Shown here: positions 25,472-37,687 of the stretch, piece after piece
How the letters are laid out: each line of letters begins with the position of its first letter
How positions within the stretch are numbered: the first letter of the stretch is position 1
Assembly: GCF_009498235.1 (NCBI RefSeq)
Contig: NZ_CP044205.1
Coordinates: forward strand, 367,716-431,715
Origin: Candidatus Methylospira mobilis
Lineage (GTDB): Bacteria > Pseudomonadota > Gammaproteobacteria > Methylococcales > Methylococcaceae
Direction: 5' to 3'
Length of the DNA: 64,000 bases
Notes under the pieces: model-generated
Databases searched by the model: none
What the model was told of the DNA's origin: nothing
The model's input: the letters and a program-made list of their open reading frames with translations, nothing else
Position numbers and translations under genes: made by a program

Positions 25472-27345
<1,874 letters not shown>

Positions 27346-27433
27346 GGCTGCGTTCCAAATGCAGCCGATCTTCTCAATTCGGTGTATCAGTTTTCAATCG
27401 GCACGCTGTATCAATTTACATCCGGCAGTGACA

Positions 27434-27438
27434 AGGTT
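27434..27438. repeat. Target-site duplication, right copy (AGGTT)
   Basis: Direct repeat of 25392-25396, immediately outside the right end of the IS21-type element. Confidence 0.88.
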
Positions 27439-27819
27439 CAACAAGCGCGCGAGCAACAGTGGCCCCATCTGCGAGATGGTTGCATTAACAGGTATGCCTT
27501 TTTCGCTAAATACATCCCATAAGGTTACGCTGCTGGCATACGGAGTGAAACCGGTGAGGCCGAGTTCCTGCACCCTCTCTTCAAGTTTCGGAGTCAAAGT
27601 ACCGGCAGCGCCTATACCGGAAAGGTCGCCTTTGACATCGGCCATGAATACAGGAACGCCGATATAGGAAAGACGTTCCGCAATAGACTGTAGGGTAACC
27701 GTTTTTCCGGTTCCTGTTGCACCGGTAATCAAGCCGTGACGATTGAGCATTTGCGGCAACAACGCCGGGTAATTGTCGTCGGATTTGCCAATATAAAGTA
27801 GTACAGGTGAGCTGGGCAT
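27434..27819 (-). pseudogene. yjgR: N-terminal part of IS-disrupted HerA-like ATPase (DUF853, YjgR type)
   Basis: Starting at the ATG at 27819 ([18 protein letters not shown], with AAAGGT about 10 bases upstream), this part encodes the Walker A loop GATGTGKT (residues 33-40) and [11 protein letters not shown]. It then runs to LLLARLLN, where the IS21-type element begins. In its present state it would be translated into the element and stop shortly after. The frame extending upstream to 28173 runs through the divergent Nudix gene and is not part of it. Confidence 0.87.
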
Positions 27820-27897
27820 GGTGTATGGACCTTTAGCAAAAAAATAGGGATGATTGTATAGTGTCTCCGAAAATGGTACTGGCGGGAAGCCGGTGCC

Positions 27898-28353
27898 ATG
27901 GAACCTGAAGGTAAACTTATGAATAAACCTGTTACCCCATTGCTGGCCGCGGATACATTGATTCAATTGATTGATCGTCCGGGCAAACCGATAGTGCTGA
28001 TCGAGCGAGCCAATATTCCGTACGGATGGGCCATACCCGGCGGTTTTGTGGATGTAGGAGAAACTCTGGAGCGGGCGGCGGCGCGTGAAGCCAGAGAGGA
28101 AACCGGTCTGGAAGTGAGGCTGACAGTCTTGCTGGGCATTTATTCCAACCCGGTGCGAGATACGCGCGGACATACCGTAACTGCAGTATATGTGGCTGAA
28201 GCAGTGGGTACCCCGAAAGCAGATGACGATGCCAAAAATGCCGGTATCTTCGCCCTGGAAGCGTTACCTGCTCCACTGGCTTTCGACCATGCGCAGGTAT
28301 TGGAAGATTTTCGCATTTATCTTGAGTGCGGGCGAGTGACGCCGCTACGCTAA
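27898..28353 (+). CDS. Nudix hydrolase
   Basis: This 151-residue protein (possibly starting at the second Met, codon 8, [14 protein letters not shown]) carries a complete Nudix box within [26 protein letters not shown] (G-x5-E-x7-R-E-x2-E-E-x-G). The enzyme hydrolyses a nucleoside diphosphate linked to another moiety. The short single-domain form and the N-terminal [16 protein letters not shown] resemble ADP-ribose or (d)NTP pyrophosphatases, but the substrate cannot be read. It is divergent from the disrupted yjgR gene, about 80 bp away. Confidence 0.88.
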
Positions 28354-29680: not shown

Positions 29681-30049
29681 ATGCAGGAAACAATCAGGCA
29701 TCAAGATTCTGGCGAAGAGTTCTACACGCCGGAGCGTTGTTATATTACCGAGTTGTCGAACCTACCCGGCGATCCGGATGCGTCTATCGCCCGCGCACGT
29801 GTACTGCCGGGAGTAACTACCCGCTGGCATCGGCTGAAGGGAGTAATAGAGCGATACTATATCGTTGCAGGGTACGGGGTAGTAGAGGTGGGCGAGCTAC
29901 CGCCAAAGGAAGTCCATCCGGGGGATGTCGTGCTGATACCTTCGATGTGCCGGCAAAGGATTACCAACTCCGGAGCCGAGGATCTGGTGTTTCTGGCTAT
30001 CTGTACGCCGCGTTTTCTAAATGAAGTTTATGAAGATATAGACGTTTAA
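29681..30049 (+). CDS. Small cupin-domain protein
   Basis: This 122-residue single-domain cupin has the first cupin motif recognisable around ARVLPGVTTRWHRLKGVIERYYIVAGYG (residues 38-65, with His and Glu ligands). The second is in HPGDVVLIPSMCRQRITNSG (about residues 83-102), where the usual metal-binding histidine is replaced by Arg/Gln. So it may bind metal incompletely or only a small ligand. It is convergent with the flavodoxin gene at the edge of the nif region. The function is unknown. Confidence 0.82.
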   Translation: MQETIRHQDSGEEFYTPERCYITELSNLPGDPDASIARARVLPGVTTRWHRLKGVIERYYIVAGYGVVEVGELPPKEVHPGDVVLIPSMCRQRITNSGAEDLVFLAICTPRFLNEVYEDIDV

Positions 30050-30162: not shown

Positions 30163-30699
30163 TTATTCGTCGAGCAACTCCGGCTTGATTTGTTCCAGCC
30201 ATTCGTCAATGCGTTCCTCGGTCAGGGTGCTTTGGTTGTCGTGATCAATGGCAAGACCGACAAAAGCGTCGTCAACGACCGCCTTCGACTTTTCGAAGGT
30301 GTAGCCGTCAGTCGGCCAGGAACCGATGACCGTTGCTCCACCTTCCTTGACGACTTCGTATATGAAGTACATTGCATCGACAAATTCATGGCCATAGCCT
30401 TCCTGGTCGCCCAAGCCGAAAAGCGCTACAACCTTCCCGGAGAAATCCTTGCCTTTTAGTTGCGGCAAAAACTCGAGCCAGCTTTCCGCCTGCCCGCCGG
30501 ACTCTACTCCCGGTAATTCGCCGTCGCCCAGCGTGGGCGTACCCAATAGCAAAGCATCGTACTTAAGCAAGTCGTCGACGCTTGCCTTGTTGATATTGAC
30601 CGGCGCATCGGCCGCGTCACCCAGTTTTTTATGCAAGGTTTTTGCAACTCGACGTGTATTGCCGGTATCGCTTCCGAAAAAAATTCCCACTCTAGCCAT
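30163..30699 (-). CDS. nifF: Flavodoxin, nitrogen-fixation type
   Basis: This 178-residue long-chain flavodoxin has the FMN phosphate loop FFGSDTGNTRRVA (residues 7-19), TPTLGDGELPG (about 54-64) and GLGDQEGYGHEFVDAM (about 95-110). NifF-type flavodoxins deliver low-potential electrons to the nitrogenase iron protein. Assignment to nifF rather than a housekeeping flavodoxin rests on its position in the leftward operon that begins at a sigma-54 promoter in the nif control region. It is 53 bp downstream of the unknown 187-aa gene. Confidence 0.85.
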   Translation of the reverse strand: MARVGIFFGSDTGNTRRVAKTLHKKLGDAADAPVNINKASVDDLLKYDALLLGTPTLGDGELPGVESGGQAESWLEFLPQLKGKDFSGKVVALFGLGDQEGYGHEFVDAMYFIYEVVKEGGATVIGSWPTDGYTFEKSKAVVDDAFVGLAIDHDNQSTLTEERIDEWLEQIKPELLDE

Positions 30700-30752: not shown

Positions 30753-31316
30753 TTAGACCGCGCCATGCGTTGCGCGTTTTGCCGATGTGGTTTTTGCACT
30801 TAGCTCATCGAATGTCAGCTTTCCGTAGCGCGGTTTGTATTCCTTAACTGCATCGTATAAAGCGATAACCTTATCGGCGGCGCTCAGCCCTTTGAAATCG
30901 CCTTTTTCCATACCCATCTCCTCTATCAATTCATTCCAGACCATACCTTCGGTCAGTGGTATCAGGACATAATTCACGCCCAGGTATTCCACCTGAGCCG
31001 CTTGGGCGATGTTGGCGACGTACAGAATGGACAGCACTCCAGGCGCGAAGTCGGCGCCGTATTTGTCGACGAAAACAGGAAGTAGATCCAGCTCGTCGAT
31101 AAACCCGCAGATAAACTTCAGCTTATCGTTTTCAATCAGTAGCGCCGCTTCCTTCATGGTGGCGTGCGGTGGTTTTTTTCTGCCCATTTCATCGGCGATG
31201 TCTCCTTCCTTGAGGACCCAATCTCCCCGGTAGGCATAGATGTCGCTCGAACTGGCTTTTTCCTTGAGATTGGCGTTGTACAAAAGCTCCTGGGCTTGAT
31301 AGTTATCTAAAAGCAT
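30753..31316 (-). CDS. Uncharacterised protein in the nif regulon
   Basis: This 187-residue cytoplasmic protein has no motif I recognise. It starts MLLDNYQAQELLYNA, has a central hydrophobic stretch (VLSILYVANIAQAAQVEYLGVNYVL, broken by charged residues and unlikely to span a membrane) and ends with a basic tail. It is the first gene after a leftward sigma-54 promoter with NifA-type sites, and is followed by flavodoxin, so its expression is probably tied to nitrogen fixation. It could be an accessory factor for electron delivery or cofactor assembly, but nothing in the sequence decides that. Confidence 0.8.
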   Translation of the reverse strand: MLLDNYQAQELLYNANLKEKASSSDIYAYRGDWVLKEGDIADEMGRKKPPHATMKEAALLIENDKLKFICGFIDELDLLPVFVDKYGADFAPGVLSILYVANIAQAAQVEYLGVNYVLIPLTEGMVWNELIEEMGMEKGDFKGLSAADKVIALYDAVKEYKPRYGKLTFDELSAKTTSAKRATHGAV

Positions 31317-31357
31317 AGCTGTATTTCTCCGTAATAAATGTGGATATTACCTGGATA

Positions 31358-31373
31358 AGCAAGTACCAAGCCA
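31358..31373 (-). promoter_or_regulatory. Sigma-54 (-24/-12) promoter for the leftward nif operon
   Basis: Read on the minus strand: TGGCTTG-GTAC-TTGCT, with the invariant GG and GC separated by 10 bases. It is about 43 bases upstream of the ATG of the 187-aa gene. Confidence 0.78.
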
Positions 31374-31481: not shown

Positions 31482-31497
31482 TGTAGCAAACACGACA
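31482..31497. promoter_or_regulatory. NifA upstream activator site (TGT-N10-ACA), copy 1
   Basis: TGT-AGCAAACACG-ACA. It lies roughly 140 bases upstream of the leftward start point and 175 upstream of the rightward one, within the usual range for NifA binding. Confidence 0.72.
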
Positions 31498-31581
31498 AAG
31501 TCGCTATATGTTTGGTGCAAGCCAAACGGAACCTCGGCATCGGGAATGAAAATGTTTGGGAAGTGACAATTTATATCGAAA

Positions 31582-31597
31582 TGTACAGGTTTTCACA
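31582..31597. promoter_or_regulatory. NifA upstream activator site (TGT-N10-ACA), copy 2
   Basis: TGT-ACAGGTTTTC-ACA, about 75 bases upstream of the predicted nifB start point and 100 bases from copy 1. Confidence 0.72.
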
Positions 31598-31640: not shown

Positions 31641-31656
31641 TGGCACGCAGGATGCT
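31641..31656 (+). promoter_or_regulatory. Sigma-54 (-24/-12) promoter for nifB operon
   Basis: TGGCACG-CAGG-ATGCT, with GG and GC separated by 10 bases and the -24 half matching consensus perfectly. It lies about 98 bases upstream of the nifB ATG. The surrounding region 31317-31753 is otherwise gene-free and A/T-rich. Confidence 0.88.
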
Positions 31657-31753: not shown

Positions 31754-33241
31754 ATGGAACTACCCGTATTACAAGATCACCAGCCAGCCGCCAAAGGCGG
31801 GTGCAGCGCATCATCCTGCGGTTCCAGCGATGATCAGGTCAATCTTCTTCCGGATACCATCCGCGAAAAGATCCAGAATCATCCCTGTTATTCGGAAGAC
31901 GCGCATCATTATTTTGCGCGTATGCATGTGGCGGTCGCGCCGGCCTGCAATATCCAGTGCCACTACTGCAACCGTAAATACGATTGTTCGAACGAATCGC
32001 GCCCCGGCGTGGTATCCGAACTGTTGACCCCGGAACAGGCCGTCAAGAAAACCATGGCGGTCGCCGCTTCGATACCGCAGATGACTGTATTGGGCATAGC
32101 CGGTCCTGGCGATCCGCTTGCCAATCCGGAGCGCACTTTTGCGACTTTCCGCATGCTAACCGAGCAGGCGCCCGATATCAAGCTGTGCGTTTCAACCAAC
32201 GGTCTTGCGCTGCCGGAATCCGTGGACGAACTGGCGAAAGCCAATATCGATCACGTCACCATTACCATCAACACGGTGGATGCGGAAATCGGCGCGCAGA
32301 TTTATCCGTGGATATTCTGGAAAAACCGCCGTATCAAGGGTAAAAAAGGTGCGCAAATTCTGATAGATCAACAGCAGAAAGGGCTGGAAATGCTGATATC
32401 GCGCGGTATTCTGGTCAAGGTCAATTCGGTGATGATACCGGGGATCAACGACCAGCATCTGGCGGAAGTCAGTCGCGTTGTGAAATCGAAAGGCGCATTC
32501 CTGCACAATGTGATGCCGTTGATCTCCGAAGTGGAACACGGCACTTTCTATGGCGTAATGGGGCAGCGCGGTCCCTCTCCTGACGAACTGATGGATTTGC
32601 AGGAAGCCTGTTCCGGCGACATGAATATGATGCGCCATTGCCGCCAGTGCCGGGCCGATGCAGTCGGGCTGTTGGGCGAAGATCGGGGATCGGAGTTCAC
32701 GCTGGACAAAATCGATGCGATGGAAATCGATTATCAGTCGGCGATGGAAATGCGTAAAAACGTCCAGGAAGGCATCCTGGCCGACATGGAGTCGAAGCGC
32801 GCTTCCAAACAGCAAAAGGCTGCGCCGGCCGTTCCAGACGACACTCGTCCGGTATTGATGGCGGTGGCGACAACAGGACAGAATCTGATTAATCAGCATT
32901 TCGGTCACGCCAAGGAATTCCAGATTTATCAGGCTTCTCCTCAGGGCGTAAGATTCATGAGCCATCGCAAGACCGAGCAGTACTGTTCAGGCGACAGCAC
33001 TTGCGGCGAAGCCGAGTCGTCGCTGGCGCTGACCATACGTTCGCTGGAAGGCTGCGAAGCGGTGTTGTGTTCGAAAATCGGCTACGAACCTTGGGAAATG
33101 CTGGAAGAGGCGGGTATTACGCCAAACGGCGAGCATGCGATGGAAAATATCGAAGAAGCCGTGATGGCTGTGTACCTGGAAATGTTGAAAGCGGGAAAGC
33201 TGGATGATTCCGTGGCCAGGGAGCGGAGAGCGGAAGCCTGA
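31754..33241 (+). CDS. nifB: Nitrogenase FeMo-cofactor biosynthesis protein NifB
   Basis: This 495-residue radical-SAM enzyme makes NifB-co, the carbide-containing 8Fe core of FeMo-co. The SAM cluster is C65-x3-C69-x2-C72 within VAVAPACNIQCHYCNRKYDC, and further conserved cysteines follow (MRHCRQCRADAVG). A C-terminal NifX-like cofactor-binding domain starts near residue 365 (PVLMAVATTGQNLINQHFGHA). GGGAG lies 9 bases upstream of the ATG. It is first in the rightward nif operon driven by the sigma-54 promoter at 31641. Confidence 0.98.
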   Translation: MELPVLQDHQPAAKGGCSASSCGSSDDQVNLLPDTIREKIQNHPCYSEDAHHYFARMHVAVAPACNIQCHYCNRKYDCSNESRPGVVSELLTPEQAVKKTMAVAASIPQMTVLGIAGPGDPLANPERTFATFRMLTEQAPDIKLCVSTNGLALPESVDELAKANIDHVTITINTVDAEIGAQIYPWIFWKNRRIKGKKGAQILIDQQQKGLEMLISRGILVKVNSVMIPGINDQHLAEVSRVVKSKGAFLHNVMPLISEVEHGTFYGVMGQRGPSPDELMDLQEACSGDMNMMRHCRQCRADAVGLLGEDRGSEFTLDKIDAMEIDYQSAMEMRKNVQEGILADMESKRASKQQKAAPAVPDDTRPVLMAVATTGQNLINQHFGHAKEFQIYQASPQGVRFMSHRKTEQYCSGDSTCGEAESSLALTIRSLEGCEAVLCSKIGYEPWEMLEEAGITPNGEHAMENIEEAVMAVYLEMLKAGKLDDSVARERRAEA

Positions 33242-36142: not shown

Positions 36143-36823
36143 ATGCAAGTCCAAGGCTTTATAAAACACAGCATTAAAGCTGCGGCTGCACAGAACGCGA
36201 GTTTACAGCCGCGCGCGCAGGCATATCAAACCGGGGCGCCGTTTGCTGTAGCCGTGCCGCATAAGCAAACAGCGGAGCAAATTTATCAATCGCTCGCTCG
36301 CCACGCGCACTCCGCATCTCCCAATGCGGAATGGGTGGCGCGTATATTATCGAGCTGGCATGCAGGCCGCGGTGCGCTACCCGATTACCTGGGGCTGCTG
36401 CCAGAAGAATTTCAGGCCCTGCAAAAACATTTGTACGGACGGGCGTTACTGTCAGGCATATCGACGGTGGGCCGAGAACCCGATTTCAGCCGCATGCTGG
36501 AACGCGACGATCTCAAGCGCTTGATGATGCAGTCCAGCGCTTATCCAGGCAGAGCGGAAACTGCATGGATGGCCGGCATCCTGATAGCCGGTTGCCTTGG
36601 CAGCGATCATCTTTGGCAGGATCTCGGCCTCTGGAACAGAAGCGATCTGTCAGGGCTGGTACGCTACAACTTTCCGGAGCTTGCCGCGAAAAACACGCGC
36701 GACATGAAGTGGAAAAAGTTTATTTATAAACAATTATGCGAAGCCGAGGGCGTTTATGTCTGCCGCGCGCCTTCGTGCGACGTTTGCATCGATCATGCGG
36801 GCTGCTTTGGCCCCGAGGAGTGA
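36143..36823 (+). CDS. nifQ: NifQ, molybdenum donor for FeMo-cofactor
   Basis: This 226-residue protein ends with the diagnostic NifQ cysteine motif Cys207-x4-Cys212-x2-Cys215-x5-Cys221 (CRAPSCDVCIDHAGC), which holds a Mo-Fe-S cluster that delivers molybdenum to NifEN/NifH. Upstream, WMAGILIAGCLGSDHLWQDLGL (about residues 142-163) is also conserved. The next gene starts 3 bases after its stop. Confidence 0.94.
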   Translation: MQVQGFIKHSIKAAAAQNASLQPRAQAYQTGAPFAVAVPHKQTAEQIYQSLARHAHSASPNAEWVARILSSWHAGRGALPDYLGLLPEEFQALQKHLYGRALLSGISTVGREPDFSRMLERDDLKRLMMQSSAYPGRAETAWMAGILIAGCLGSDHLWQDLGLWNRSDLSGLVRYNFPELAAKNTRDMKWKKFIYKQLCEAEGVYVCRAPSCDVCIDHAGCFGPEE

Positions 36824-36826
36824 GCT

Positions 36827-37687
36827 ATGAGTCAATACCAACATATTTTTGAAGGCCTCCGAGCCAATCGTATCGTACCGTATATCGGCCCCGGAGCAGT
36901 GTCCGACGCGCGCAGCGCCCTGACCGGAACCGCCATGCCGGCCGACAGCAACAGTCTGATCCTTGCCATGAACGACGGTAAACCAATGGCGCCCAAGCTG
37001 ATGTATGAATTCCCGAGAGCGGCGATGAATCTGGAGTTGAAACGTGGACGCAGCTTTGTCGAAGGATTTCTGACACGCACCTACGCCAACACGAAATGGA
37101 CGCGCGCTCGTTTTCACGACTGGCTGGCGGAGCTGGCGCCGCATTACGTCATCGATATCAATCGCGACAGCCAACTGCAGGACAGCTACAAAAATACGCC
37201 GCACCTATTGATCCGCGGCATAGCACGAGTCGCCGGAACCGCTTATCGTTTCACCGTGCATCAATATGATGGCAGCGCGTATCATGAGGTTACCCAGGAA
37301 GAAGCCGATAGCGATCTGCCGATATTGTTCAAGCCCATGGGCAGTCCCATACCCAAGCCGTGCTTTATCGCTTCAGATGCCGACTATGTGGATTACATAA
37401 CCGAGTTGATGGGCGGCTTTGCGATTCCCTCTTTTCTTAAGGAATATCGCCAGGGATTGCAATATCTGCTCATGGGCATGCCGCTCAATCGCGATTCCGA
37501 ACGCATGGTAATGAGCGATATCACTTGGGGAGCGGCAGAGCAGCGAGGCTGGGTTCTTAATTCCAACCCAACCGATAAGGAAAAAAGATACTGCGAGCGC
37601 ATCGGGCTGGAAATCATCCCGGTGGAAATAACCGGGTTTCTGAACGAATTTCAACATCCGGCACAAGTTGAAAGCGTTGCTGCATAG
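36827..37687 (+). CDS. SIR2-like protein linked to nif genes
   Basis: This 286-residue protein has a SIR2-like NAD-binding start (RIVPYIGPGAVSD, about residues 14-26), a later ILFKPMGSP segment in the position of the sirtuin core glycine loop, and LQYLLMGMP. The deacetylase catalytic histidine motif is not obvious, so it may be an NAD(+)-binding or NAD-cleaving variant. It is 3 bases from nifQ and so probably cotranscribed; SIR2-like genes do recur in nif clusters of related bacteria as I recall. The function is unknown. Confidence 0.8.
   Translation: MSQYQHIFEGLRANRIVPYIGPGAVSDARSALTGTAMPADSNSLILAMNDGKPMAPKLMYEFPRAAMNLELKRGRSFVEGFLTRTYANTKWTRARFHDWLAELAPHYVIDINRDSQLQDSYKNTPHLLIRGIARVAGTAYRFTVHQYDGSAYHEVTQEEADSDLPILFKPMGSPIPKPCFIASDADYVDYITELMGGFAIPSFLKEYRQGLQYLLMGMPLNRDSERMVMSDITWGAAEQRGWVLNSNPTDKEKRYCERIGLEIIPVEITGFLNEFQHPAQVESVAA

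Follow-up and report, generated by a model that had tools for sequence, protein, structure and literature searches.

What is the 187-aa protein whose gene faces nifB in Candidatus Methylospira mobilis, and does it have a part in nitrogen fixation? A preliminary description had placed its gene at the head of a leftward sigma-54 operon, ahead of flavodoxin, had noted no recognisable motif, and had suggested an accessory protein of nitrogen fixation. I analysed the locus in a stretch of DNA of 64,000 nucleotides (the window; coordinates refer to it unless a contig or locus is named). The protein is called FAM here, a label used in this study. The features of the locus are as follows.

30163 to 30699, minus strand: flavodoxin, second gene of the leftward operon (TIGR01752, 217 bits, cut-off 146.75)
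30753 to 31316, minus strand: FAM, 187-aa protein, open reading frame with an ATG start at 31316
30756 to 30764, minus strand: codons of the C-terminal Gly-Ala-Val tail of FAM, residues 185 to 187
31327 to 31330, minus strand: GGAG, likely ribosome-binding site, read in the sequence, 11 to 14 bases before the FAM ATG
31359 to 31373, minus strand: TGGCTTGGTACTTGC, -24/-12 (sigma-54) promoter-like site of FAM, 43 to 57 bp upstream of the gene
31482 to 31497, no strand assigned: NifA upstream activator-like site, TGT-N10-ACA
31553 to 31568, no strand assigned: NifA upstream activator-like site, TGT-N10-ACA
31582 to 31597, no strand assigned: NifA upstream activator-like site, TGT-N10-ACA
31641 to 31655, plus strand: -24/-12-like site of the divergent nifB operon, one mismatch to the consensus
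31754 to 33241, plus strand: nifB, first gene of the divergent operon (Radical_SAM and Nitro_FeMo-Co domains)
36143 to 36823, plus strand: nifQ (PF04891, 174 bits)
36827 to 37687, plus strand: pnfA homologue, SIR2-like, directly 3' of nifQ (homology search seeded with the gene at the pnfA position of locus L145; SIR2 fold match)

The FAM ORF is followed, after a gap of 53 bp, by the gene of a long-chain flavodoxin on the same minus strand, and the -24/-12-like site lies upstream. FAM is the first gene of the leftward operon, as had been described. A gap of 437 bp separates it from nifB, whose operon continues with genes for a ferredoxin, an ArsC-like protein (the nitrogenase-associated type, TIGR01616, over the cut-off), a flavodiiron-like protein, two 2Fe-2S ferredoxins, NifQ and the PnfA homologue. 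FAM and pnfA are in separate operons of the window; the pnfA gene lies 5.5 kb off on the other strand and is the sole PnfA match in this genome (G000).

Is the ORF a real gene? It is, since the full length of FAM is conserved across records that bear the titles Beta-, Gamma- and Zetaproteobacteria and across other genomes of the phylum. When 84,980 species genomes were scanned by pattern, 296 loci encoding FAM relatives emerged, and the best 80 were kept. These best 80 of 296 include Methylococcales, Azoarcus, Azonexus, Dechloromonas, Stutzerimonas, Azomonas, Marinobacterium, a zetaproteobacterium and others. The relatives share 34 to 52% identity within Methylococcales and up to 51% outside. 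Two classes of FAM were found, with a mean identity of 24% between them: class A, which includes the window protein, has about 185 to 191 residues, and class B about 194 to 199. Class B was seen too in several more distant genomes of the class and phylum samples described below. A class B copy is also carried with nifH and nifD on one contig (G013:C2), and a search of plasmids gave one record with FAM, a class B copy annotated as a hypothetical protein on NZ_CP070492.1 (89.6 kb) of Methylococcus sp. EFPC2. FAM was not found in the phage search.

The single protein matched no family in Pfam, PHROGs or PADLOC, reached only chance level in NCBIfam (cas_TM1812, E 0.16), and hit no chain among the PDB sequences at a meaningful E-value. 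No convincing family emerged either when 69 members were compared with Pfam and NCBIfam and their profile with PDB. The 69 members (alignment A2) are the window protein and 68 of the best 80 loci; the 12 omitted are close relatives of kept rows, and L139, whose reading frame breaks near the end. The weak matches are ACT_3 in 7 of the 69 members (best E 1.1e-3), phycocyanin alpha in two (best E 2e-3) and an acetyltransferase chain (E 9.4e-3). Like cas_TM1812, they are spread over unrelated families and were put down to chance. Thus, the statement that the protein has no recognisable motif is right as far as the family libraries go, for the single protein, the 69 members and the profile. The conservation of single residues is nevertheless strong: R30, G31 and K142 are invariant in 120 of 120 unique sequences (counted without L139 and without seven nearer phylum loci), and P50, N102, G113, P120 and K149 are nearly so. 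Several weak fold matches pointed to a restriction-type nuclease or a metallo-beta-lactamase; both were rejected, since the invariant residues hold neither D-ExK, which is a nuclease motif, nor a metal-ligand set.

Is FAM restricted to nitrogen fixers? Among 101 related genomes, FAM homologues occur in 49 and nifD in 52 (51 over the cut-off and one truncated where its contig ends). Each of the 49 carriers has nifD, and the three nifD genomes without FAM are G004, G022 (72% complete) and G061. G091 has a second match, which is broken (56 residues, one stop) and was left uncounted. In a class sample of 369 genomes, the 11 carriers all have nifD (in one it is divided between two contigs), and FAM is present in 11/32 nifD genomes and absent from the other 21. 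In a phylum sample of 398 genomes, all 13 carriers are over the nifD cut-off, while 28 of the 41 nifD genomes are without FAM. The Fisher p-values of the association are 1e-25, 3e-13 and 2e-14 for relatives, class and phylum, respectively, and overstate it because the genomes are related. The samples also share carriers (G000 is in all three, G008 and G044 are in two), so that 69 different carrier genomes are represented. These results suggested that the FAM family, which looks restricted to diazotrophs in the sampled genomes, is not universal among them, and FAM is not essential for diazotrophy in general since so many diazotrophs do without it. The restriction to nifD genomes rests on these three samples; the best 80 of 296 loci were checked for nearby nif genes. 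The preliminary description had named occurrence in non-diazotrophs without nif linkage as the case against its proposal, and carriers without nifD number 0/49, 0/11 and 0/13 in the three samples. In evolutionary terms, the tie of the FAM family to nitrogen fixation is firm. FAM is carried by 49 of the 52 sampled diazotrophs of the order, yet no scanned library names it.

Is FAM also regulated like a nif gene? The site TGGCTTGGTACTTGC has two mismatches to TGGCAC-N5-TTGC, with GG and GC kept. By itself it is poor evidence, since 66 -24/-12-like sites with at most two mismatches occur in the window and 82.5 are expected from shuffling. TGT-N10-ACA occurs six times in the 64-kb window (8.68 expected in shuffles), and three of the six lie inside the 437-bp gap, where 0.06 are expected (Poisson p for three or more, about 3e-5). 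The activator-like sites of the gap are thus hardly a matter of chance, and the gap holds one -24/-12-like site for each direction besides. A survey was extended to 81 loci, namely the best 80 of 296 and the window, with the DNA upstream of FAM, or upstream of pnfA at loci where it adjoins FAM, and with 3200 random 450-bp windows from the same loci as the control. The stretch measured 571 bp at 26 loci and 450 bp at the other 55 (shorter at contig ends). TGT-N10-ACA was found at 60 of the 81 loci against 10.5% of the random windows, and together with a -24/-12 site at 37 against 2.6%, although the 571-bp stretches, which take in 120 bp inside the pnfA ORF, favour matches a little. Neither site was seen at 12 loci. 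In many relatives the -24/-12 site lies about 50 to 64 bp before the start, a spacing similar to that in the window. The FAM family thus appears to be often under NifA/sigma-54-type sites, and the nif-type regulation predicted earlier is borne out as a prediction by the three sites of the gap and the enrichment across the loci, with TGGCTTGGTACTTGC adding little alone.

A counterpart with expression data may exist in Pseudomonas stutzeri A1501. The cited passages of PMC2820453 give the gene order nifH (PST_1326), pnfA (PST_1325) and PST_1324. In Stutzerimonas BAL361 (L116), a divergent nifH is followed by pnfA and then by a FAM that stands in the same alignment as the window protein. By gene order, that is, from L116 set against the table of the paper and with the PST_1324 sequence outside the comparison, FAM corresponds to PST_1324. 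The latter is listed there as a conserved hypothetical protein of the nif island, 25.99-fold up on N2, and the 11 predicted operons of the island are stated to be NifA- and RpoN-dependent by RT-PCR (data not shown there). The preliminary description had held a lack of expression change on N2 to be damaging; the syntenic gene is listed as strongly induced (PMC2820453). The arrangement in the window differs in that FAM precedes flavodoxin, diverges from nifB and has pnfA in the other operon. A search of the open-access literature in PMC did not find a functional study of PST_1324. PST_1324 and PST_1325, the latter as "SIR2 family protein", both appear in a table of PMC11332353. From the gene numbering in the part of PMC10581106 cited here, one might guess that Avin_01360 to Avin_01370 are FAM and PnfA. 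A SIR2 family protein of a Rhodobacter nif cluster, which may or may not be PnfA, was not found in the proteome of a nifA mutant, according to the cited passage of PMC6925177.

PnfA itself has a mutant phenotype, described in passages of PMC2820453. A non-polar pnfA mutant retained 23% of the wild-type nitrogenase activity with an unchanged nifH transcript. Its activity was wild-type-like in strict anaerobiosis, fixation was lost with nitrate as the electron acceptor, and the mutant was still Nif+ on semisolid medium. The authors propose electron transfer or oxygen protection as the role of PnfA. FAM is not PnfA itself, which has about 290 residues and a SIR2 fold. The two resemble each other in that PnfA is linked to diazotrophy and is under NifA/sigma-54 control in P. 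stutzeri (PMC2820453, cited passages), but they are unrelated in sequence and no SIR2 match was obtained for FAM.

Do FAM and PnfA travel together? PnfA is present in 50 of the 101 relatives, 47 of which also have FAM (co-occurrence p 1e-22). FAM lacks a PnfA match in G020 and G029, and PnfA lacks FAM in G004, G033 and G061. The class of PnfA, assigned by identity to the window PnfA (at least 62% or at most 29%), agrees with the class of FAM in 47 of 47 genomes, although co-inheritance of the nif island alone may explain this agreement. FAM is thus statistically coupled to pnfA. In 26 of the 76 loci with enough upstream DNA, from the best 80 of 296, pnfA lies upstream of FAM on the same strand within 400 bp; the two are not adjacent in the other 50. 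As a separate observation, G033 (430 contigs) has PnfA but neither nifD nor FAM; either PnfA is left over from nitrogen fixation since lost, or the assembly has a gap.

In the model of the window PnfA (pLDDT 87.7), a SIR2 domain extends over the whole length, and it is closest to anti-phage SIR2 proteins, namely KomC (Z 18.8), DSR2 (18.6) and ThsA (18.6). PnfA was aligned with four other SIR2 proteins from relatives, of which L201 and L207 have the H-G motif and L209 and L210 do not. The place of K-x-H-G reads KP[ML]G in all unique class A sequences of PnfA (31 of 31; KPMG in the window), and the preceding motif retains its Asn (alignment A4, without L133, which has ambiguous bases, and without a few near-identical rows). 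In the class B type, this Asn is Trp in 14 of 14, and the His position is Leu in 12 of 14; the His is kept in L186, and the motif was not found by pattern in L065. The Asn has a catalytic role in SIR2 proteins, and a catalytic role of the His is backed by PDB titles of His mutants (DSR2 H171A, KomBC H146N). Since the His is replaced, PnfA is probably not an NADase in most carriers. These features suggest that the PnfA of nif clusters is a domesticated, probably inactive sirtuin, and the tie with FAM turns the role of a degraded defence-type sirtuin in nitrogen fixation into a testable question.

What does FAM itself look like? The AF2 model is a confident one (mean pLDDT 93.3, pTM 0.89) of an alpha/beta protein. 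It has no clear match among solved structures (Foldseek best E 7.8e-3 against PDB, VIA best Z 3.2), and its best E against a viral structure library is 2.2e-2. The modelled fold thus seems unmatched in these two sets, to which its novelty is limited. The structure prediction and profile search proposed earlier have given a good model and no convincing family or solved relative. Across both classes, 133 of 134 unique members end in [GR][AP][VIL]-COOH; the single exception is L139, with its frame broken near the end. The positions just before this tail vary, and residues 184 to 187 are the only segment of the model with pLDDT below 50. Because the chain end is conserved and yet disordered, it is suggested to be a docking tail. 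The preliminary description had named neither this tail nor pnfA as a partner.

From the nifD in all sampled carriers, the nif-type sites, and the N2 induction of PST_1324 and the coupling to PnfA, which sustains nitrogenase activity in P. stutzeri (PMC2820453, cited passages), it is concluded that FAM very probably belongs to the nitrogen-fixation machinery and has been overlooked there, so that the proposal of an accessory protein is supported. How might it work? I favour the following reading and give it a probability of roughly 0.4. FAM would be made under the NifA/sigma-54 programme and would act with PnfA as one module after transcription, by which nitrogenase would stay active during respiration of oxygen or nitrate. 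FAM may dock on PnfA, on nitrogenase or on an electron donor by means of its tail and the conserved region of residues 126 to 149. PnfA, with its degraded sirtuin motif, would bind nucleotides or serve as a scaffold and would not be active as an NADase. Since the literature searched yielded no mutant of FAM or PST_1324, this mechanism draws on the phenotype of the partner PnfA and on co-occurrence. If FAM supports nitrogenase under respiration as PnfA does in P. stutzeri, it belongs on the parts list for the transfer of nitrogen fixation to hosts that respire oxygen. NafU of Azotobacter vinelandii is comparable as a nif-linked protein that supports aerobic nitrogenase activity, but NafU-His is a 13.8-kDa protein of the inner membrane (PMC8907163, cited passages), whereas FAM has 187 residues and a globular model. 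NafU and NafH were ruled out as the identity of FAM by size, place or published role (cited parts of PMC8907163 and PMC6016461).

Could FAM instead be an assembly or cofactor-insertion factor like NafY, NifY or NifW, binding immature MoFe protein or carrying FeMo-co? The class A genes of Methylobacter-type genomes lie inside nifENX-DUF269-ferredoxin clusters, ahead of the NafY-like gene (DIMCO_N and Nitro_FeMo-Co) in which the clusters end, and the presence of nifD in all carriers would also fit. Like FAM, the Naf factors are encoded by accessory genes of nif clusters and are in part dispensable, according to the cited passages of PMC10581106. FAM has neither DIMCO_N nor Nitro_FeMo-Co, however, in the window protein or among the eight families matched by any of the 69 members, and both Cys and His are absent from its invariant positions. 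The immature Strep-tagged MoFe protein of A. vinelandii came with NafH, NifW, NifZ, NafY and NifY in the cited part of PMC6016461, although that strain may lack FAM. This role is rather unlikely.

FAM may also simply belong to the nif regulon, with some subtle part in metabolism, and touch neither PnfA nor nitrogenase. Within up to 6 kb on each side (less at contig ends), a nif gene is nearby in 41 of the best 80 of 296 loci, a nif gene or pnfA in 55, and neither in 25, so that the physical linkage is far from strict. This incomplete linkage and the many phylum-sample diazotrophs without FAM would suit such a modest role. The lack of carriers without nifD in three samples and the strong sequence constraint speak against it, and I consider it rather unlikely.

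A bolder variant makes PnfA a domesticated defence-type SIR2 protein which has lost catalysis and senses the nucleotide or redox state, with FAM as the adaptor that would signal to nitrogenase via its tail; taken as a whole, this is distinctly unlikely.

Does FAM help to deliver electrons, for instance in partnership with the flavodoxin, ferredoxins or Rieske proteins of neighbouring genes? FAM is co-directional with flavodoxin in the window, and class B genes, which often diverge from nifHDK, lie near genes for response regulators, globin, Rieske, NifO-like and nitroreductase-domain proteins; the globin, Rieske and NifO-like neighbours would be in line with such a role. Directly downstream of FAM, the 76 loci with enough downstream DNA (from the best 80 of 296) have an AAA ATPase in 13, a rhodanese in 8 and flavodoxin in 3, to which the window adds one more. 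Since flavodoxin is so rare a neighbour, the idea of a general flavodoxin partner was demoted. FAM also matches no redox-cofactor family, with no FMN-binding or Fe-S motif found in the family libraries for the single protein or the 69 members. Electron delivery is very unlikely as the role of FAM. From the position of the gene the nif linkage stands, if incompletely, while the place ahead of flavodoxin is unusual for the family.

The least likely role is that of a short-lived regulator of nif protein turnover whose tail would direct it to a Clp/AAA-type unfoldase, as a signal for degradation or docking. The near-invariant tail, which presumably resembles ClpX C-terminal tags, ends in a free hydrophobic residue, often with basic residues before it. 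An AAA ATPase gene is the 3' neighbour at the 13 loci given above, which would fit, but it was seen in this place only at loci of the Methylococcales type. This ATPase has about 570 residues (L046:8044-9762 and its counterparts at the same 13 testable loci) and lies directly 3' of FAM in Methylobacter-type nif clusters.

Some further features of the surroundings were observed. A Cupin_2-domain gene at 29681 to 30049 faces the end of the flavodoxin operon. At 26266 to 28173, a transposase-type gene (rve domain) adjoins an ORF with a partial match to HerA_C helicase (114 of 502 positions), and the arrangement looks as if an insertion had cut a helicase gene. Beyond the right end of the window, at a distance of 13 to 36 kb, two NifD-related sequences (G000:C1:444864-447559 and 466481-467761; 365 and 294 bits) are below the NifD cut-off. 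They possibly belong to an alternative nitrogenase and a scaffold, the main nifD of the genome being at 1109461.
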